From NCBI GenBank assembly GCA_031459855.1, contig JAVKHP010000001.1, forward strand, positions 1,284,059-1,348,058: a stretch of 64,000 bases of DNA, given 5' to 3'. A program made the position numbers and the translations under genes. The notes under the pieces are model-generated. The model did no database searches, had not been told where the DNA came from, and saw only the letters and a program-made list of their open reading frames with translations. Each line of letters begins with the position of its first letter. Positions within the stretch are counted from its first letter, which is position 1. The stretch comes from Armatimonadota bacterium (GTDB lineage Bacteria; Sysuimicrobiota; Sysuimicrobiia; Sysuimicrobiales; Humicultoraceae). Shown piece by piece: positions 32,128 to 48,412 of this stretch.

Positions 32128-33501
32128 TCATCGCAGCGGCAGCCCCAGCCGGCGCAGGTCCTCTTTGGCCCTGGCGTAGATCTCGTAGTGCCAGGGCGCC
32201 GGCTCCAGGGTGTCCAGATCGTAGCAGTCCTGGAACCGCGAGCCCTCCGGCGCGTTCTCCAGGTGCGGTTCGTAGCGCGCCAGCAGCGCCTTGACGATCT
32301 CGTTGCCCTGCTCGCGCGTCAGCCCCGCCGCGGCATGGGCCACCTCGCACGCGAAGCGCATCTCGAGTGGACTGTAGTTGTCCATGAGGATGCCCTTGGC
32401 CGGGTGCACCGTCTCGATGTTGGCTCCCGAGACCACGTCGGTGATGATGCGGGCCGCGGTCTCGTCGTACAGCTGCGGCGTCGCCGTGCCGGCCGCGGCG
32501 TAGCCCAGGTTGAAGTAGGGGAAGGGCATGTTGCGGCTGATGGCCTGGCAGCCCAGGGCCACGCTGGTGAGCACCTCGCGCGCGGTGGAGTTGGACTGGG
32601 TGATGTGCAGCGAGTAGAGCAGGTGGTACGTGGCGCCCACCAGCAGGGGGCCGGCCATGACGTACGCGGCGTTGAGCACCGCCGAGCCGATGACCCCGCC
32701 GGCGAAGCCGCCGTAGATGGCGCCGGCCGCGAACCCCACGTTGCCTCCGAACGAGAGTACGGCGGCGGTCTTGTTCAACACGTTGTAGTCGAGCTTGAGC
32801 TCCGAGAGCGAGACGATCAGCCAGCCGTCGCTGGGGCGCAGGCCGTACTCGCGGTTGGTGACGGCCAGCACGCCCATGGGCGACGCCGAGGTGGACAGCA
32901 GGTTGATGATCGGCAGCCCGGGCCGCCCGGCGCGGCGCATCGACTCGCGCCCCAGCCGCACCGAGTGGATCGCTGCGAAGATCTCGGACGGCGCGCCGGC
33001 CTGCACCGGCATGCCGCGGATCCGGGTGAGGGCGGGGATGCTCATCGAGTCGGCCTGCGGGATGCGCGCGTAGCCTTCGACCACGGCCGAGGCGATCTCG
33101 TCCGAGGAGACCGGAATGCCGCCGCCCACGTGGCACCACGGGCGCTGTGGATCCTCGGGCCGGCGTGGCCGCATGGCCTTCGCCTCCTTCCCCTCGCCCA
33201 GCGCACACGCCCGCGGGGCGTAGTGGATCGCCTCCTCCAGCTCGTCGCGGGTGAAGGTGATGACCCGGTTGGTGTCGGGGCAGTAGCAGCCCGTCTCCAC
33301 CAGGAACTCCTTGGCGGCCAGGAAGATGCGGTCAGCCAGGTCGTCGTCCCAGGGCACGACGACGTCCTTCGGCGGGGCCTTCAGCCCGTACTTCGCGATC
33401 ACCCGCGTCAGGTTCGGCACGAACCGCTGCATGTCGAAGTCGTCGGGCGCCACGATCGGCCCGGTCGCGGCCCGTCGGCAGATCTCCAGGAAGGGCACCA
33501 T
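32128..33501 (-). CDS. Trimethylamine-methyltransferase family protein (MttB superfamily, non-Pyl)
   Basis: The 457-aa TIM-barrel enzyme belongs to the MttB superfamily, which demethylates quaternary or tertiary amines onto a cognate corrinoid protein. Landmarks are FTRDELEEAI, ISSDEIASAVVEGYARIPQAD-like and GGNVGFAAGAIYGGFAGG segments. The frame contains no in-frame amber codon, so it is a non-pyrrolysine member like glycine-betaine MtgB, proline-betaine MtpB or carnitine MtcB homologues. The substrate is most likely a quaternary amine, but the family is broad. ATG 33501 has a strong GAGGAGG SD. The corrinoid partner follows directly. Confidence 0.9.
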   Translation of the reverse strand: MVPFLEICRRAATGPIVAPDDFDMQRFVPNLTRVIAKYGLKAPPKDVVVPWDDDLADRIFLAAKEFLVETGCYCPDTNRVITFTRDELEEAIHYAPRACALGEGKEAKAMRPRRPEDPQRPWCHVGGGIPVSSDEIASAVVEGYARIPQADSMSIPALTRIRGMPVQAGAPSEIFAAIHSVRLGRESMRRAGRPGLPIINLLSTSASPMGVLAVTNREYGLRPSDGWLIVSLSELKLDYNVLNKTAAVLSFGGNVGFAAGAIYGGFAGGVIGSAVLNAAYVMAGPLLVGATYHLLYSLHITQSNSTAREVLTSVALGCQAISRNMPFPYFNLGYAAAGTATPQLYDETAARIITDVVSGANIETVHPAKGILMDNYSPLEMRFACEVAHAAAGLTREQGNEIVKALLARYEPHLENAPEGSRFQDCYDLDTLEPAPWHYEIYARAKEDLRRLGLPLR

Positions 33502-37216: not shown

Positions 37217-38905
37217 TCAGGCCTGCAGGCCCAGGATCGTACCGTCGTCATCGATGTCGATCTCCCGCGCGCGGGGTCGCGCGCCCAGCGCGGGCATCGT
37301 CAGCATCTCGCCGGCGAGCGCCAACACGAACCCCGCACCGGCCCGCACCGCTGCATCCCGGATCCGCAGCACGACGCCCGCGGGCACGCCGCGCAGCTGC
37401 GGCCGGTCGCTGAGCGAGTACTGGGTCTTGGCGATGCAGACGGGCAGCCGGCCGTATCCCCAGGTCTCGGCTTCCGCCAGCCGCGCGCGGGCGGCGTCGG
37501 CGAACTCCACGCCGGCGGCGTTGTAGACCACCTGCGCCACCGTGCGGATCTTCTCCGCCAGCGGGGCGCCGGCAGGGTAGAGCCTGCCGCCGTCCGGGAG
37601 GGCCCCGTCGGTCTCCGGTCCGGGCGCCTCCTGGGCCACCCGGCACACCAGGTCGGCCACCTCCAAAGCGCCCTCCCCACCGGCGTCGTACGCGCGCGAG
37701 ATGGCCGCGGGCACGCTCCAGGCCCGCGCGGCGTCCAGGACCGCAGCCTGCTCCCCCGGCGCATCCGTCGTGAAGGCGTTGACGCAGACCACCGGTCGCA
37801 TGCCCAGGCGCCGGACGATGCCGACGTGATGGCCGAGCAGCGGCAGCCCGGCCCGGAGCGCCTCCTCGTCGGGCGCCGCCAGCTGCTCGACCGGCAGGCC
37901 GCCATGGTATTTCAGGGCACGGGTCGTGACCACGACCACCGCGACGGCGGGCCGGGGACCGCCGTGGGCGCCGACGATGTGGACGAACTTCTCCGCACCC
38001 AGGTCGGCGCCGAACCCCGCCTCCACGACCACGTAGGACGCCAGCCGGCGTGCCAGGTGCAGCGCCACCAGCGAGCTGGTGCCATGGGCGATGTTGGCGA
38101 ACGGTCCGGCGTGCACCAGTGCCGGACCACCTTCCTGCGTCTGCACCAGGTTGGGCAGCAGCGCGTCCCGCAGCAGCGCGGCCATCGCGCCGGCCACCCC
38201 CACGTCGTCGGCGGTCACCGGCGCCCCGGCCGGCGTCGCGCCCACCACGATACGCCCCAGCCGTTGCCGCAGGTCGCGGTACGACGTGGCCAGGGCCAGG
38301 ATCGCCATCACCTCCGATGCCGCCGTGATCTCGAAGCGGTCCTCGCGGGGGGTCTGGTCCAGGGCCACCAGCACCCGGCGCAGGGCGCGGTCGTTGACGT
38401 CGAGGACGCGGGGCAGGAACACGCGCGCCGGGTCCACCCGGGGCTCGCGTTTCCGGTACAGGTGGTCGTCGAGCGCCGCGGCCAGCAGGTTGTGGGCGGA
38501 GGTCACCGCGTGCAGGTCGCCGGTGAAGTGCAGGTTGATGGCCTCGGCCGGTTCGACCGTGGCGCGTCCGCCGCCGGTGGCCCCGCCCTTCTGGCCGAAG
38601 ATCGGTCCCATGGAGGGCTCCCGCAGGCAGACGATGGCACGTTCGCCCAGCCGCCAGAGCGCCTGGGCCAGGCCGATGGCGGTGGTGGTCTTGCCCTCGC
38701 CCGCGGGCGTCGGGTTGATGGACGTGACGAGGATCACCCGCCCGCGCGCCCGCGCCTCCAGCCGCGCCAGGGCCCGCAGCGACACCTTTGCGATCCACGG
38801 GCCGTAGGGGATCAGGTCATCGGCGGTCAACCCGATCTGGCGTGCGACGTCGGCGATCGGGCGCAGGCGCGGACGTGCGGGGACCGGCTCGCGCAGCGGC
38901 CTCAC
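37217..38905 (-). CDS. fhs: Formate-tetrahydrofolate ligase
   Basis: This 562-aa enzyme interconverts formate + ATP + THF and 10-formyl-THF. The P-loop PTPAGEGKTTT is at 65-75, followed by REPSMGPIFGQKGGATGGG, INLHFTGDLHAV, a FANIAHGTSS region and a C-terminal GEMLTMPAL. Length is normal. GTG 38905 overlaps the stop of the pterin-binding gene (GTGA). In the demethylation direction it would release formate from folate-bound C1 units with ATP gain; in the other it feeds C1 into biosynthesis. Two helpful neighbours, MTHFR-like and methyltransferase genes, are upstream in the operon. Confidence 0.95.
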   Translation of the reverse strand: MRPLREPVPARPRLRPIADVARQIGLTADDLIPYGPWIAKVSLRALARLEARARGRVILVTSINPTPAGEGKTTTAIGLAQALWRLGERAIVCLREPSMGPIFGQKGGATGGGRATVEPAEAINLHFTGDLHAVTSAHNLLAAALDDHLYRKREPRVDPARVFLPRVLDVNDRALRRVLVALDQTPREDRFEITAASEVMAILALATSYRDLRQRLGRIVVGATPAGAPVTADDVGVAGAMAALLRDALLPNLVQTQEGGPALVHAGPFANIAHGTSSLVALHLARRLASYVVVEAGFGADLGAEKFVHIVGAHGGPRPAVAVVVVTTRALKYHGGLPVEQLAAPDEEALRAGLPLLGHHVGIVRRLGMRPVVCVNAFTTDAPGEQAAVLDAARAWSVPAAISRAYDAGGEGALEVADLVCRVAQEAPGPETDGALPDGGRLYPAGAPLAEKIRTVAQVVYNAAGVEFADAARARLAEAETWGYGRLPVCIAKTQYSLSDRPQLRGVPAGVVLRIRDAAVRAGAGFVLALAGEMLTMPALGARPRAREIDIDDDGTILGLQA

Positions 38906-39739
38906 GGGCGCACCTTGAGGAAGTCGAAGGCACCGGCCCGCGCCGCGGTCAGGTAGCGCCGGCAGAAGTCGTCGTGCCCCAGCAGCATCTCCGCGGTGGC
39001 CAGCTGCGCCATGAGGCGCCGGTCCAGCGGATCGAGGATGAAGGCGTCCATGCCATGGGCCAGGCAGAGCACGAGGAACACCTGGTTGATCTGCGCCCGA
39101 TGGGGCAACCCGAACGAGACGTTGCTGAGGCCGCAGATGGTGCGGATCCCAGGGTAGCGGGCCTTGATCAGGTCCAGCGCCTCCAGGAAGACCGCCACGC
39201 ACCGGCTGTCGGTCGCGATGGGGAACACCAGGGGGTCCACCAGGATGTCGGCGAAGGGCACGCCGGCATCGGTCAGGCCGTCGACGAGGCGCGCGGCCAG
39301 TTCCAGCCGCCCCTGGGCCGTGGCCGGAATCCCCGTGTCGTCCATGCACAGCGCGACGACCTCCGGTTGGAACTCCTTGATCACGGGGAGCAGGCGCGTC
39401 CAGCGATCGTGCTCCAGGTTGATCGAGTCCAGGAGCGCGCGGCCGCGGTGGACTTCCAGGCCGCGCCGCAGCGCAGCGGGGTTGGGGCTGTCGATGGAGA
39501 GCCGGACGTCCAGCGCGTCCTGGATCGTGCGCACCGCCCACTCCATGCACGCCACCTCGTCCTCCATGAGGGTGGCGCAGTTCACGTCGACGAGGTGCGC
39601 GCCCGCGTCCACCTGGCGACGGGCCAGGTCGACGATGGCAGCGGCGTCCCGGGCCTCCAGGAGCGGCTGGATCTGCCGGCGCGTCGAGTTGATCAGCTCG
39701 CCGACGATCAGCGTGCGGGGGCGGATACTCGTCGCCCAT
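38902..39739 (-). CDS. Pterin-binding methyltetrahydrofolate methyltransferase, apparent N-terminal frameshift
   Basis: The protein resembles AcsE/MeTr and the MetH pterin domain: LIVGELINSTRRQIQ, DAGAHLVDVN, RLSIDSPNP, DTGIPATA and GLSNVSFGLPHRA. It would move methyl groups between the corrinoid protein and tetrahydrofolate. The best start is ATG 39739 with a GGGAGGTG SD, but it is one base out of frame with the conserved part. Removing one base from a run of five (39717-39721) restores a continuous reading. In the conserved frame no ATG/GTG/TTG occurs before GTG 39612, which would delete about 33 conserved residues. It could be a sequencing error, a non-canonical CTG start at 39711, or real slippage. 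Confidence 0.8.
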
Positions 39740-41297
39740 CACCTCCCGTGGGCAGCCGGGCGGGATGCGGTCCTCCGCCCTGGAAGTGGACGAGCCAGGA
39801 GCAGCGATCGCGGTGCGCTTCGGGCACAGCGGGGATCAGCAGGTGCTCGAGGTCGTCCAGCCGGCCGGCGGCCTTGGCCAGGCGGTAGATCCGGTGGTGG
39901 ATGCACTCGTGCGCCGCGACCTCGCAGCGGCCGTCGCGGCTGCCGCCACAGGGGCCGTTGGCCAGTCCCTTGGGACACGTCTCCGGGCACACGTACGCGG
40001 TGGCGGGCAGGCGGCAGAAGCCGCAGCGCCGACAGCCGACCAGCGGGCCCTTCACCGCACCCTCCAGCGCTGCCAGCAGGGCGTCAGCGCCCGCGCGGCC
40101 CTCCAGCGCCCGCACCAGCGGACCGAGCACGCGGGCCCCGGCGGAGCCGTCGTGGAACACAGCCCGGTCGACGGCGTCCAGCAGGCGAAACCGGAGCGCC
40201 TCGACGCGCCCGGGCCGTGCGCCGTCTACGGGGAACGCCCCGTCGAGGTAGTAGCCATCGTCCGGCGCGACGCGCGCCTGACGGCCATCGGGGAGGGTGA
40301 GCATCTCCCCCCAGGCCTGCTGCCACGCGTCTAGGTCGGGGCAGGCGGTGGCGACGGCGTCGACCTCCTCCAGCAACCGTTCGACCTTCGGCCAGGTGTG
40401 CAGGCCGCTGACCTGCGCGCCTGCATACCCCAGCAGCCGGACGCCCACGATCTGCAACGCCAGGCGGCGAAACGCCGCCGCCTGGCCCCCGTCGGGCGCA
40501 CACGCCTCTTCCTCCAGCCGCCGCGCCAGCTCGTCGGTGACGACGACGCCCGGCAGCGGGGTCTGCCGCAGGCGGCGGCAGCCGCGCGGGGTGAGCCACA
40601 GCAGGCCCGCCACCAGCGGGACGTCGTAACCGCGGGCCGCCAGCACGGCGCGGGCCTCGTGGTACTTCCGCATGTCCCAGCCGATCTGCGTGATGAGCAC
40701 ATCGGCGCCGGCCCGCACTTTCTTCCCAGCTTTCAGGTACTGCCCCAGCAGTTCCTCCTCGCGGTACTTGAACGGGCACACTGCCGCGGCCAGCAGCGCC
40801 CCCGGCGCCTGCTGCCGCGCCTGCGCCAGCGCCAGCACCGCATCGAGGTAGCGCACCGGGCGATCGCGGGGCGGGGCGCGCAGGGCGTCGCCGGTGACCA
40901 GCAGGAAGGCGTCCAGGCCGGCAGCCTGCGCCCGCCTCAGGGCCGCGTCGAGGTCGGCCGGCGACCGGTCCTTGCCGGCCAGGTGCACCAGCGGCACCAC
41001 GCCCGTGGCCGCCGCCAGGTGGGCCCCGATCGCGACGGGATCGTGGTCGTGGTCGGATCGACTCCGGTCGGTGAGCGCGATGGCCGCCACGCGCCCGTCG
41101 CTGGCTGCGGCGCGGGCCAGCGCCACGATGGGGCGGACCGCGTCGTCGAACGGCTGGCTGGCCGTCGGCGACGCCACCTCAACGGTCAGGAAGAAGCGGC
41201 CGTCGGCCAGCGCGTCGCGGACGCGGTTGTGCCGCGGGCGCACTGCCGGAGGCAGATGCGCCCCGGCGGAGGTCGGCACGACGCGAGGGGCACTCAC
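39708..41297 (-). CDS. Methylenetetrahydrofolate reductase-like protein with MTHFR_C cysteine-rich domain
   Basis: A 529-aa two-part protein. Residues about 18-330 form an MTHFR-like barrel (FFLTVEVASPTASQPFDDAV, IALTDRSRSDHDHDPV, FLLVTGDALRAPPRD, ADVLITQIGWDMRKYHE, VAGLLWLTP). The C-terminal domain has many cysteines (GCRRCGFCRLPATAYVCPETCPKGLANGPCGG), the MTHFR C-terminal domain that probably binds an Fe-S or zinc centre and electron partner. It would interconvert methylene- and methyl-THF using a ferredoxin-like donor. GTG 41297 is the most likely start; the SD is weak. The stop overlaps the next gene's start region. It is the first gene of the corrinoid operon. Confidence 0.85.
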   Translation of the reverse strand: MSAPRVVPTSAGAHLPPAVRPRHNRVRDALADGRFFLTVEVASPTASQPFDDAVRPIVALARAAASDGRVAAIALTDRSRSDHDHDPVAIGAHLAAATGVVPLVHLAGKDRSPADLDAALRRAQAAGLDAFLLVTGDALRAPPRDRPVRYLDAVLALAQARQQAPGALLAAAVCPFKYREEELLGQYLKAGKKVRAGADVLITQIGWDMRKYHEARAVLAARGYDVPLVAGLLWLTPRGCRRLRQTPLPGVVVTDELARRLEEEACAPDGGQAAAFRRLALQIVGVRLLGYAGAQVSGLHTWPKVERLLEEVDAVATACPDLDAWQQAWGEMLTLPDGRQARVAPDDGYYLDGAFPVDGARPGRVEALRFRLLDAVDRAVFHDGSAGARVLGPLVRALEGRAGADALLAALEGAVKGPLVGCRRCGFCRLPATAYVCPETCPKGLANGPCGGSRDGRCEVAAHECIHHRIYRLAKAAGRLDDLEHLLIPAVPEAHRDRCSWLVHFQGGGPHPARLPTGGDGRRVSAPAR

Positions 41298-41418
41298 CGA
41301 CGCTGCCAGTGTGCAAAGCAGGCGCACGACCGGGCAATCACCGGTTTCAGGGAGTCGCTGGCGGGGCAGCGCATGCAGGACGAAGGACGCTTCAGAGGTG
41401 CCGGCGGAGGGAGATGGT

Positions 41419-41441
41419 GTCCAAGCAACGTCCAAGCAGCG
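41419..41441 (+). repeat. Left copy of a 23-bp inverted repeat built from GTCCAAGCAGC
   Basis: Two tandem 11-12-base units (GTCCAAGCAAC, GTCCAAGCAGC). An inverted copy lies at 43014-43036 beyond the other end of the regulator gene; the copies differ at one base. It sits in the 202-bp gap between the regulator stop and the start of the MTHFR-like gene. Confidence 0.6.
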
Positions 41442-43344: not shown

Positions 43345-45765
43345 GTGAAGACGGATGCCCAGGCGGTGATCATCGGTGGTGGCGTCTACGGGTGCAGCGT
43401 CGCCTACCACCTGACGGCCCTCGGCTGGCGCGACGTGGTGCTGGTGGAGAAGGGCCGTCTGACCGGTGGCGCGACGTTCCACGCAGCGGGCCTAGTGGGC
43501 CAGCTGCGGGCGACGCTGGGCCTCACCCGCATGATCATGTACAGCGTCGAGCTGTACCGCCGCCTGGCGGCCGAGACCGGGCAGGATCCCGACTGGCGCG
43601 AGACCGGCAGCCTGCGGCTGGCCGCGACCCCCGACCGGCTGGTGGAACTGCGCCGCCACGTGGCCACCGCCAGGACGTACGGCCTGGAGATGCACCTGCT
43701 GACGCCGCGGGAAGCCGTCGCCCTGTTTCCGGTCATGAGCGACCGCGACCTGCTGGGGGCGGCCTACGTGCCCACCGACGGCAGCGTCGACCCCACCGGG
43801 CTGACCCTGGCCCTCGCCCGCGGCGCCCGGGCCCGGGGCGCCGAGATCCACGAGGGGGTCGAGGTGAGAGAGATTCTCACCCGGAACGGCCGCGTGCGTG
43901 GCGTGGTTACCTCGCACGGCACCATCACGGCCGAGGTGGTCGTCAACACCGCCGGCATCTGGGGGCGGGAGCTCGCCGCGCGGGTGGGCGTGGTCGTGCC
44001 CATCTACCCCATCGAGCACCAGTACCTCCTGACGGGCCCCATCGACGGGCTGCGCCGGGGCCTGCCGGTGGTGCGCGACCCCGATCTGCTGATCTACTTC
44101 CGCGAGGAGGCACGCGGCCTGTGCCTGGGTGGCTACGAGCGCCATCCCCTGCCGTGGGGAGTCGATGGCATCCCGCCCGACTTCCACCACCGGCTGCTGC
44201 CACCCAACTGGGAGCAGTTCGAGCCGTTGGCCCGCAACGCCGCCCGGCGCATTCCGGCCCTGGAGACCGCGGGGGTGCGCGAGCTGGTCAACGGCCCCGA
44301 TGGCATCACCGCCGACGGCGAGCTGATCCTGGGCGAAGCGCCGCAGCTGCGCGGGTTCTTCGTCGCCTGCGGCACGCCGGGCATCGCCTCCGCCGGCGGC
44401 GTCGGCCGCGTCCTGGCCCAGTGGATCGTGGAGGGCGACCCCGGGCTGGACGTCTGGCGCATGGACATCCGCCGCTTCCAGGCCCACTACGGCGACCCGG
44501 CCTACGCCCGTGCCCGCGCGCTGGAAGCCTACTCCAAGAACTACGTGCTCCGCTACCCCTTCGAGGAGTGGGAGTCCGGCCGGGGCCTCAAGCGCAGCGC
44601 GGTCTACCCGCGGCTGGTGGCGCTTGGCGCGGTGTTCGGGGAGAAGGGCGGGTGGGAGCGGCCGAACTGGTGTGCGGCCAACCTCCCCGACGGTCCCCCC
44701 GCATGGGAGCCCGTGGGCTGGTTCCGCCACAACTGGTCCCCGGCCATCGCCGTCGAGCACCAGGCCTGCCGCGAGGCCGCGGGGCTGTTCGACTTCACGT
44801 CGTTCTCCAAGTTCGAGGTCACCGGGCCCGGGGCGTTGCGCCTGCTGCAGTGGCTGTGCGACAACGACGTCGACCGGCCGCCGGGCACCGTGGTCTACAC
44901 CCAGATGCTGAACGCGCGCGGCGGGATCGAGTGCGACCTGACCGTGACGCGGCTGGGACCCGAGCGCTTCGCCGTCGTCACCGGCAGCGCGTTCGGGGTC
45001 CACGACCTCGCCTGGATCACGCGCCACCTGCCCGAAGACGGCTCGGTCACCGTGCGCGACGTCACGGTCGAGCAATGCTGCCTGGGGCTGTGGGGACCCC
45101 GGGCCCGCGAGATCCTGGCCCGGGTCACCGACGCCGACCTCTCCAACGCGGTGTTTCCCTACATGACCGCGCGGGAGATCACCATCGCCGGCGTCCGGGT
45201 GCGCGCGCAGCGCGTCACCTACGTGGGCGAGCTCGGCTGGGAGCTCTACATGCCAGCGGAGGCAGGCCTGGCGGTGTGGGATGCGCTGTGGGCGGCCGGG
45301 CAGCCGTTCGGGCTGCGGGCGGTCGGGTACCGCGCCGTGGACTCGCTGCGGTTGGAGAAGGGCTACCGGTACTGGAGTGCGGACATCACGCCGGAATACA
45401 CGCCGTACGAGGCGGGCCAGGGGTTCTGCGTGAAGCTGGACAAGGGGAGCTTCCAGGGGCGGGAGGCGCTCGTGCGGCAGAAGGCCGAGGGGGTCCGTCG
45501 CCGGCTGTGCTGCCTGGTGCTAGCCGACCCGCGGCGGGTTGCCCTGGGCAACGAGCCGGTGCTGGCCGCCGACCGGCCCGTGGGCCGGGTGACCAGCGGC
45601 GGGTACGGCTACACGGTGGGGGAGAGCCTGGCCTACGCGTACCTGCCGGTGGAGCTGGCTCACGTGGGCACCGCCCTGGTCGTCGAGGTCGACGGCGATC
45701 CGGTGCCAGCCACGGTACAACGCGAGCCGCGCTACGACCCCACGGGAAGCCGCATCAAGGCATAG
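43345..45765 (+). CDS. Dimethylglycine/sarcosine dehydrogenase-like flavoprotein, paralogue 1
   Basis: This 806-aa protein has the DMGDH layout. An N-terminal FAD domain (VIIGGGVYGCSVAYHL) runs to about residue 370, a linker FAO_M domain to about 440, then a GcvT-like folate domain and GcvT C-terminal barrel (GYRAVDSLRLEKGYRYWSAD, GYGYTVGESLAYAYLP). Such enzymes oxidatively remove an N-methyl group and pass it to THF as 5,10-methylene-THF. The region that carries the covalent-FAD histidine in DMGDH reads ATFHAAGLVGQ here. GTG 43345 has a GGGAGG SD. The next gene is a paralogue starting 10 bp later. Confidence 0.9.
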   Translation: MKTDAQAVIIGGGVYGCSVAYHLTALGWRDVVLVEKGRLTGGATFHAAGLVGQLRATLGLTRMIMYSVELYRRLAAETGQDPDWRETGSLRLAATPDRLVELRRHVATARTYGLEMHLLTPREAVALFPVMSDRDLLGAAYVPTDGSVDPTGLTLALARGARARGAEIHEGVEVREILTRNGRVRGVVTSHGTITAEVVVNTAGIWGRELAARVGVVVPIYPIEHQYLLTGPIDGLRRGLPVVRDPDLLIYFREEARGLCLGGYERHPLPWGVDGIPPDFHHRLLPPNWEQFEPLARNAARRIPALETAGVRELVNGPDGITADGELILGEAPQLRGFFVACGTPGIASAGGVGRVLAQWIVEGDPGLDVWRMDIRRFQAHYGDPAYARARALEAYSKNYVLRYPFEEWESGRGLKRSAVYPRLVALGAVFGEKGGWERPNWCAANLPDGPPAWEPVGWFRHNWSPAIAVEHQACREAAGLFDFTSFSKFEVTGPGALRLLQWLCDNDVDRPPGTVVYTQMLNARGGIECDLTVTRLGPERFAVVTGSAFGVHDLAWITRHLPEDGSVTVRDVTVEQCCLGLWGPRAREILARVTDADLSNAVFPYMTAREITIAGVRVRAQRVTYVGELGWELYMPAEAGLAVWDALWAAGQPFGLRAVGYRAVDSLRLEKGYRYWSADITPEYTPYEAGQGFCVKLDKGSFQGREALVRQKAEGVRRRLCCLVLADPRRVALGNEPVLAADRPVGRVTSGGYGYTVGESLAYAYLPVELAHVGTALVVEVDGDPVPATVQREPRYDPTGSRIKA

Positions 45766-45775
45766 GAGGCCGCGC

Positions 45776-48412
45776 ATGGAGGAAGAGGCGCAGGCCGTCG
45801 TCATCGGCGGCGGTATCGTCGGGTGCAGCGTCGCCTATCACCTGGCGGCGATGGGCTGGCGCGACGTGGTGCTGGTGGACAAGGCCGACCTGACCAGCGG
45901 GTCCACCTGGCACGCGGCCGGCCTGGTCGGCCAGCTGCGCGGCACGTTGAGTCTCACGCGCATCATGATGTACAGCGTCGAACTCTACGCGCGGCTGGCG
46001 GCCGAGACCGGGCACGATCCCGAGTGGCGTCAGGTGGGCAGCCTGCGCCTGGCGTCGTCGCCGTTGCGCATGGAGGAGAACCTGCGTCAGGCCGCGCTGG
46101 CCCGCACCTTCGGGCTGCCGGTGGAGGTGCTGGGGCCACGCGAGACGCTGGCGCTGTGCCCGCTGCTGTCCGACCGCGACCTGACAGGCGCGGTCTACAT
46201 GCCCACCGATGGTCGCGTCGACAGCAGCGGTGTGACGTTCGCGCTGGCCCGGGGTGCGCGGCAGCGCGGCGTGCGGATCTACCCGAACACGCCCGTGCGG
46301 CGCATCATGGTCCGCCGCGGGCGCGTCCAGGCCGTCGTCACCGACCGCGGGATGATCCGGACGCCCGTCGTGGTCAACGCCGCCGGCATGTGGGCCGACC
46401 AGATCGGCCGCATGGTGGGCGTGCGGGTGCCGATCGTGCCGATGCAGCACCAGTACCTGTTGACCGAGCCCATCGACGGCGCGCACCGCGATCTGCCGGT
46501 CGTGCGCGATCCCGACCTGCGCCTGTACCTCCGCGAGGAGGTCCGCGGGCTGCTGGTGGGCGGTTTCGAGGCCGACCCTGCGCCCTGGGCGGTCGACGGC
46601 GTGCCCGAGGAGTTCGTCCACCGGCTGCTGCCGGTGAACTGGCCGATCTTCGAGCCGATCGTGCGCAACGCCGCCCGGCGGGTTCCCGCCTTCGAGCACG
46701 CGCAGATCGCGAAGATCATCAACGGCCCCGAGGCGTTCACCCCCGACGGCGAGTTCATCCTGGGCGAGGCGCCCGGCGTGCGCGGGTTCTTCGTGGCCGC
46801 GGGATTCTGCGCCTACGGCATCGCCGCCGGGGGCGGCGTCGGCCGGGTGCTGGCCGAGTGGATCGTGGACGGCCAGCCGAGCCTGGACGTCTGGCGCATG
46901 GACATCCGGCGGTTCGGTCCGCAGTTTGCCGACGCGGCCCACACCGTGGCGCGATCCGTGGAGGCGTACGCGCGCCGCTACGGCGCGGTGGCCCTGCCGT
47001 TCGACGAGTGGGACACGGGTCGCAACTTCCGGCACAGCCCGATCCACCCCCGCCTGGTGGCGTTGGGCGCCGCGCTGGGGGAGAAGGGCGGCTGGGAGCG
47101 TCCGAACTGGTTTGCGTACAACCTGCCTGCCGACGGGCCAGAGGGTGCGTTGACCGGCGCAGCGGTCGGCGCGGGAGCGTCTGCCGCAGCGGCCGCCGGC
47201 GGGGTGGCGGCAGAGGGCACAGCGCAGGCTGCGGCATCGTCTGCTGGGGCGCCGTTGGCAGGGCCACGCAGTGGGCCGTCGTCGCCCCGGGAGCCTGGGA
47301 CATCGGCGTCTGCCGTGGAGCTCGACCAGGTGGCGTCCGCCCCCGCGACCTGGCGGCCGCGCGGCTGGTTCCGGCACAACTGGTCGCCGGCGATTGCGGT
47401 CGAGCACCGGGCGGTGCGGGAGGCGGCGGGGCTGTGCGACTTCACGTCGTTCTCGAAGTTCGAGCTCACGGGGCCGGGGGCCGTGGGGCTGTTGCAGTGG
47501 TTGTGCGACAACGACGTGGACCGGGCGCCGGGGACGGTGGTGTACACGCAGATGCTCAACACGCGGGGCGGGATCGAGTGCGATCTGACGGTGACGCGCA
47601 TGACCGCGGACCGGTTCTTCGTGGTGACGGGGAGCGCGTTTGGGGTCCACGATCTGGACTGGATCACGCGCCACCTGCCCGACGACGGGTCGGTGGCGGT
47701 ACGGGACGTGACGACCGAATGGGCATGTGTGGGGCTGTGGGGGCCGCGGGCGCGCGAGATCCTGGCGCAGGTCACCGATGCCGACCTGACCAATGCGGCG
47801 TTTCCCTACATGACGGCCCGGTGGGTGCGCGTGGGAGATGCGGACGTGTGGGCACAGCGGGTGACGTACGTGGGCGAGCTGGGGTGGGAGCTGTACGTGC
47901 GACCCGAGCAGGCGCTGGGCGTCTGGGACGCGCTGTGGGAAGCGGGGCGGCCCGCAGGCTTGCGGCCAGTGGGATATCGGGCCGTGGACTCGCTGCGGCT
48001 GGAGAAGGGCTACCGGTACTGGAGCGCGGACATCACGCCCGAGTACACGCCGTACGAGTCAGGCCAGGGGTTCTGCGTGAAGCTGGACAAGGGAAGCTTC
48101 CAGGGGCGCGAGGCGCTCGTGCGGCAGAAGGCCGAGGGGATCCGCCGCCGCCTGTGCTGTCTGGTGCTGGCCGACCCGCAGGCCGTGGCGCTGGGGAACG
48201 AGCCGGTGTTCGACGGTGCGCGGGTCGTTGGGCGGGTGACCAGCGGCGGGTACGGCTACACGGTGGGGGAGAGCCTGGCCTACGCGTACCTGCCGGTGGA
48301 ACTGGCCCGGGTGGGCACTGCGCTGGTCGTTGAGGTCGACGGCGCCCGCGTGGCGGCGGTGGTCGCGCGCGAGCCGCGCTACGATCCCGAACACACCAGG
48401 CTCAGAGCCTGA
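45776..48412 (+). CDS. Dimethylglycine/sarcosine dehydrogenase-like flavoprotein, paralogue 2 with Ala-rich insert
   Basis: At 878 aa it is about 70 residues longer than its tandem neighbour. The FAD domain (VVIGGGIVGCSVAYHL), FAO_M and GcvT parts align throughout. It keeps the classical GSTWHAAGLVGQ segment, in which DMGDH/SARDH bind FAD through His; the neighbour has Phe before that His. The extra length is an Ala/Gly/Ser-rich linker at about residues 455-522 between the FAD/FAO_M half and the folate half. Tandem duplication followed by divergence is clear. ATG 45776 follows an AGGAGG SD. Substrates of the pair may be successive (dimethylglycine, then sarcosine). Confidence 0.9.
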   Translation: MEEEAQAVVIGGGIVGCSVAYHLAAMGWRDVVLVDKADLTSGSTWHAAGLVGQLRGTLSLTRIMMYSVELYARLAAETGHDPEWRQVGSLRLASSPLRMEENLRQAALARTFGLPVEVLGPRETLALCPLLSDRDLTGAVYMPTDGRVDSSGVTFALARGARQRGVRIYPNTPVRRIMVRRGRVQAVVTDRGMIRTPVVVNAAGMWADQIGRMVGVRVPIVPMQHQYLLTEPIDGAHRDLPVVRDPDLRLYLREEVRGLLVGGFEADPAPWAVDGVPEEFVHRLLPVNWPIFEPIVRNAARRVPAFEHAQIAKIINGPEAFTPDGEFILGEAPGVRGFFVAAGFCAYGIAAGGGVGRVLAEWIVDGQPSLDVWRMDIRRFGPQFADAAHTVARSVEAYARRYGAVALPFDEWDTGRNFRHSPIHPRLVALGAALGEKGGWERPNWFAYNLPADGPEGALTGAAVGAGASAAAAAGGVAAEGTAQAAASSAGAPLAGPRSGPSSPREPGTSASAVELDQVASAPATWRPRGWFRHNWSPAIAVEHRAVREAAGLCDFTSFSKFELTGPGAVGLLQWLCDNDVDRAPGTVVYTQMLNTRGGIECDLTVTRMTADRFFVVTGSAFGVHDLDWITRHLPDDGSVAVRDVTTEWACVGLWGPRAREILAQVTDADLTNAAFPYMTARWVRVGDADVWAQRVTYVGELGWELYVRPEQALGVWDALWEAGRPAGLRPVGYRAVDSLRLEKGYRYWSADITPEYTPYESGQGFCVKLDKGSFQGREALVRQKAEGIRRRLCCLVLADPQAVALGNEPVFDGARVVGRVTSGGYGYTVGESLAYAYLPVELARVGTALVVEVDGARVAAVVAREPRYDPEHTRLRA

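Follow-up and report, generated by a model that had tools for sequence, protein, structure and literature searches.

Near-cognate codons, CUG and the ATT of infC among them, are rare as bacterial translation starts. The locus described here shares with such genes a conserved N-terminus, in an in-frame open reading frame, that can be reached only from a near-cognate codon; it differs in that the likeliest codon is ACG, one transition away from an ATGA overlap, and in that its use is predicted. The programmed frameshift of prfB (release factor 2) offers a second comparison, as there too a frame lacks a start of its own; relatives of the present gene, however, carry no conserved shift site, and no shift is needed to read it. 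The gene lies in a 64,000-nucleotide stretch of an Armatimonadota genome (the window) and encodes a predicted methyltransferase of the type represented by MeTr/AcsE (PDB 2e7f and 2yci) and the related 4o0q (listed as DHPS), with which it shares a pterin-binding TIM barrel over its full length, from residue 2 almost to the C-terminus. It departs from MeTr/AcsE in scoring under the NF040758 cut-off, in lying beside an MtmB-like gene and in its non-canonical start. A first-pass annotation of this DNA had explained the missing start by a frameshift in a run of five Cs, which, once mended, would join the gene to ATG 39739; it also entertained a non-ATG start, and that option is well supported by the analysis presented here.

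Results

An intact methyltransferase gene in a C1 cluster

Profile search identified PF00809 in the methyltransferase (E 1.5e-22), and the MeTr model NF005719 scores it at 317 bits against a cut-off of 259, over residues 2-262 of 270, placing it in that family. The CODH/ACS-specific model for AcsE, NF040758, yields 124 bits against a cut-off of 370, and by this measure the predicted enzyme is not AcsE in the strict sense. Matches in the PDB (4o0q, E 1.3e-57; also 2yci and 2e7f) align from residue 2. On these matches we judge the gene intact and its predicted protein complete, as the first-pass annotation had held for everything but the start. The gene, which that annotation placed in a C1 operon, sits within a minus-strand C1 cluster comprising a methylenetetrahydrofolate reductase, the methyltransferase, a formate-tetrahydrofolate ligase (whose GTG start overlaps the methyltransferase stop as GTGA), a Met_synt_B12-type activation domain, a RACo-type corrinoid activator, a homocysteine S-methyltransferase and an MtmB homologue (Table 1).

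Table 1. Features at the reductase-methyltransferase junction and in the adjoining genes (window positions).
Feature	Position	Strand	Remark
Upstream gene, methylenetetrahydrofolate reductase with MTHFR C-terminal domain	39708..41435	-	PF02219 3.9e-16; PF12225 2.7e-22
Ribosome-binding site GGAGGTGAT	39738..39746	-	9 nt able to pair with the canonical anti-Shine-Dalgarno
Out-of-frame ATG of the first-pass annotation	39737..39739	-	Overlaps the Shine-Dalgarno, 2-nt spacer from GGAGG; judged not a start
ACG (ACG AGT ATC...), preferred non-canonical start codon	39730..39732	-	9 nt after GGAGG
CCCCC run	39717..39721	-	Five bases consistent with the reductase stop at 39710-39708
ACG, second candidate start	39712..39714	-	Exact place of the ATG/GTG start in orthologues L002-L005
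CTG, rival start	39709..39711	-	Forms CTGA with the reductase stop
Methyl-THF:corrinoid-protein methyltransferase gene, pterin-binding TIM barrel	38902..39732	-	Start taken as ACG 39732; stop TGA 38904-38902
Formate-tetrahydrofolate ligase gene, 3' neighbour of the methyltransferase	37217..38905	-	PF01268 1.4e-207

The MtmB homologue (window 32128-33501, minus strand) is full-length, matching PF05369 at 9e-89 and the monomethylamine methyltransferase 1l2q at 8e-60. It contains no in-frame TAG, and the site corresponding to the pyrrolysine of 1l2q falls within GLPIINLLSTS; the genome that carries it yielded no PylS over the cut-off, and the 42 remaining genomes of the class yielded no MtmB match. 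It would appear to be an MtmB-like enzyme free of pyrrolysine, encoded in a THF-linked C1 cluster, and deserves a separate look. On the plus strand of the window, at 43345-48412, lie two neighbouring paralogues that resemble dimethylglycine/sarcosine dehydrogenase and combine FAD oxidoreductase with GcvT-type folate-binding domains; the second also contains a low-complexity, Ala/Gly-rich insert of ~70 residues.

A conserved N-terminus upstream of every canonical start

The methyltransferase frame opens behind an in-frame stop, TGA 39741-39739, and the codons from there to CTG 39711 (TGG GCG ACG AGT ATC CGC CCC CGC ACG) include no ATG, GTG or TTG. From CTG 39711 the frame reads CTG ATC GTC GGC GAG CTG ATC AAC, so that the conserved N-terminus LIVGELINSTRRQ is encoded with no in-frame ATG, GTG or TTG before it, exactly as first reported. 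The first canonical in-frame start, GTG 39612, falls 34 codons inside the conserved fold; with the N-terminus upstream of all canonical codons and a stop before it, the gene has the configuration of a non-canonical start. GTG 39612 itself is ruled out, as orthologues and solved structures cover the 34 residues that precede it; no homologue begins at its equivalent, an observation that the first-pass annotation had named, together with reads confirming five bases, as one that would count against it. A gene caller limited to ATG, GTG and TTG would nonetheless start there, losing the first barrel strand.

How unusual this is was gauged in a 1.66-Mb sample of the genome (81 stretches including the window, ~53%), in which 1302 genes were called by codon usage and scored by the codon-usage loss incurred when each is forced onto an ATG, GTG or TTG start, a measure that misses defects near another in-frame start. 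The methyltransferase loses 17.6 nats, the second highest value among the 1302 genes (99.5th percentile, 9.0), and its missing start is more than chance. The other extremes are a PHP-domain gene (18.3), a DppB-like ABC permease (13.3) and short pieces of ~75-90 codons, which are taken to be gene remnants. A positive control is provided by gene L151:9293, which surfaces at 7.1 and which we regard as prfB, a gene known for its programmed frameshift (CTTTGAC). At most a few of the 1302 sampled genes, covering about half of the genome, share the defect; very few look broken, and the assembly does not look riddled with indels. A response-regulator/HD gene (L067:10956-11951, minus strand) has its conserved ILIVDDD preceded by ATA and loses 7.4; ATA is a possible start for it. 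Two startless genes have GCACGCTGA in common, and we therefore considered a motif-specific error in which GCATGC is read as GCACGC, but rejected it: GCATGC is not depleted (544 found, 489 expected).

A ribosome-binding site in register with ACG 39732

The duplex formed by GGAGGTGAT with the anti-Shine-Dalgarno is worth -17.7 kcal/mol, and the value immediately 5' of 39714 and 39711 is -2.8; the canonical anti-Shine-Dalgarno was used, the genome's own 16S not being found in the assembly. Where GGAGGTGA sites stand before starts, the distance from GGAGG to the start peaks at 8-9 nt (20 of 35 pairings), a distance of 2 nt accounting for two of the 35. The 9 nt at ACG 39732 fall in this commonest range, and in the sample spacings of 5-9 nt are strongly favoured genome-wide. 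ACG 39732 is thus served at functional spacing, as CTG 39711 and ACG 39714 are not; the other in-frame codon within range is GCG 39735, at a spacing of 6. Only ~26-30% of GGAGGTGA(T) sites in the sample precede a start; GGAGGTGAT lies at a gene junction.

The architecture of that junction points the same way. Strong-Shine-Dalgarno starts that overlap an upstream gene in this genome mostly do so by 4 nt (55 cases), an overlap of 25 nt occurring once. With T at 39731, ACGA would become ATGA, a 4-nt overlap at once starting the methyltransferase and stopping the reductase, and a T at 39734 would give GTGA at a spacing of 6 with the same double effect. The open frame of the reductase begins at TTG 41435, and C-terminal comparison reveals that its homologues end shortly after a conserved CSW..HF..GP..RLP, with a variable tail; its own stop, TGA 39710-39708, likewise follows this motif closely. 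Its codons after 39731 (CGA GTA TCC GCC CCC GCA CGC) score as non-coding, at about -4 nats, where the methyltransferase frame is neutral; codon usage in three frames across 39741-39712 speaks against the reductase frame and does not separate the methyltransferase frame from that of ATG 39739.

Because 4-nt overlaps dominate and the reductase codons after 39731 look non-coding, we interpret the junction as an ATGA or GTGA overlap that a T-to-C change has altered. The junction would once have been an ordinary ATGA overlap (or GTGA three bases upstream), reductase stop and methyltransferase start within four nucleotides; a T-to-C transition at 39731 (or 39734) would have produced ACGA, leaving the reductase to run on to TGA 39710-39708 and the methyltransferase to use a near-cognate start. 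Once the start had moved upstream, an old ATG at 39714, now ACG, would have been free to drift. The gene, then, probably contains no indel and starts one transition from a canonical codon, most likely at ACG 39732-39730 served by GGAGGTGAT. That ACG 39732 is the codon used we infer, and the off-canonical codon is either real (an ACG start, with CTG 39711 as its rival) or a base-call error.

Two observations weigh against ACG 39732: the overlap as it stands is 25 nt, rare in this genome, and in the closest orthologues the start lies six codons further inside the gene, where 39714 stands here. Nor is ACG enriched at Shine-Dalgarno spacing across the sampled genome (x1.33, p 0.14), so ACG starts show no sign of general use. 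No nearer relative with the same reductase-methyltransferase junction was found in 43 genomes of the class, a GTDB scan or IMG/VR, and this absence of a comparable junction elsewhere is the main weakness of the analysis.

Rival starts within the junction

An unlikely but still appreciable alternative is initiation at CTG 39711 through translational coupling, in which ribosomes that finish the reductase at TGA 39710-39708 would re-initiate on CTGA, one codon inside the orthologues' start. No change of sequence would be necessary, and a Shine-Dalgarno is absent at 97 of the 163 4-nt overlap junctions of this genome. The reading gains weight from the other two strongest startless real genes of a first, 679-gene scan, both of which carry CTG at the conserved N-terminus and appear, from alignment with their relatives, to start there. 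The PHP-domain gene (L066:2239-3096, minus strand) has no nearby canonical start; four relatives have ATG where it has CTG, and this CTG shares a CTGA with the upstream stop. In the DppB-like ABC permease (L064:3328-4299, minus strand; orthologues L117-L127), 8 of 11 orthologues have CTG at the start, two have TTG and one has GTG; five of the CTG orthologues have no ATG, GTG or TTG between the upstream stop and the CTG, and several have a Shine-Dalgarno a few bases upstream. Against CTG 39711, no Shine-Dalgarno is within its reach, and the 9-nt ribosome-binding site 30 nt upstream would be left without a role. CTG is not enriched at Shine-Dalgarno spacing genome-wide (x0.71), which rules out a general habit of CTG starts, and CUG is weak and rare as a bacterial start, giving ~0.86% of AUG expression in E. 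coli and making up 0.024% of bacterial starts (PMC11497404).

Less probable still is initiation at ACG 39714, which corresponds exactly to the ATG of the orthologues. Four same-family orthologues (L002-L005), 76-79% identical, have ATG or GTG directly before CTG ATC GTC GGC, and ACG 39714 is a single transition from ATG; yet no Shine-Dalgarno lies upstream, where the duplex is the weak one given above, the ribosome-binding site is too distant, and an abandoned ATG drifting after an upstream shift of the start accounts for the same codon.

Probably no frameshift in the five-C run

The first-pass annotation gave the C run (39721-39717), ATG 39739-39737 and GGGAGGTG (39747-39740) their correct positions and saw rightly that this ATG is one base out of the methyltransferase frame. 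Its main proposal, that a sequencing or assembly indel in the run conceals ATG 39739 as the true start, is nevertheless very improbable. Homopolymers are common error sites, and removing one C does join the ATG to the gene, but the reductase frame uses all five Cs and, since both frame steps are identical, any change of the run that brings ATG 39739 into the methyltransferase frame kills the reductase stop: with one C dropped, the reductase, which now stops at codon 575, would be read across the methyltransferase in the wrong frame and stop only at codon 1405. The mend therefore fails to spare the neighbour. It also restores nothing that the orthologues possess: their N-termini, the comparison that the first-pass annotation itself had called for, begin at MLIVGELIN, directly before LIVGELIN, and none of L002-L005 carries an extension resembling MGDEYPPRT, so no N-terminus is missing. 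The strong Shine-Dalgarno ascribed to ATG 39739 is indeed present, but it overlaps the ATG, leaving a 2-nt spacer from GGAGG, which in this genome is a background-level spacing; and few genes of the assembly look broken. We conclude that there is no indel in the start region of the methyltransferase.

Ribosomal slippage on the run, by -1 from ribosomes on the reductase (giving a fusion ...RVSAP-RTLIVGELIN) or by +1 from the badly placed ATG 39739, is the remotest of these readings: the frames are suitably related, -1 from reductase to methyltransferase, and CCC could re-pair on either neighbour, but L002-L005 have ordinary starts, a different upstream gene and no conserved shift site, unlike a programmed frameshift.

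Discussion

The analysis removes a false frameshift from the record. It also supplies a means of distinguishing an indel from an altered start codon, by asking whether the mend breaks the neighbour's stop.

There is about an even chance that the sequence is right and that translation of the gene truly begins at ACG (or CTG), in a lineage with a few evolutionarily kept near-cognate starts that standard callers miss. Such a lineage is suggested by the permease, with its CTG in 8 of 11 orthologues. A peculiarity of the initiator tRNA was also considered; the sampled stretches contained a single recognised Met tRNA. The permease CTG, kept across orthologues, offers a concrete test case for near-cognate initiation.
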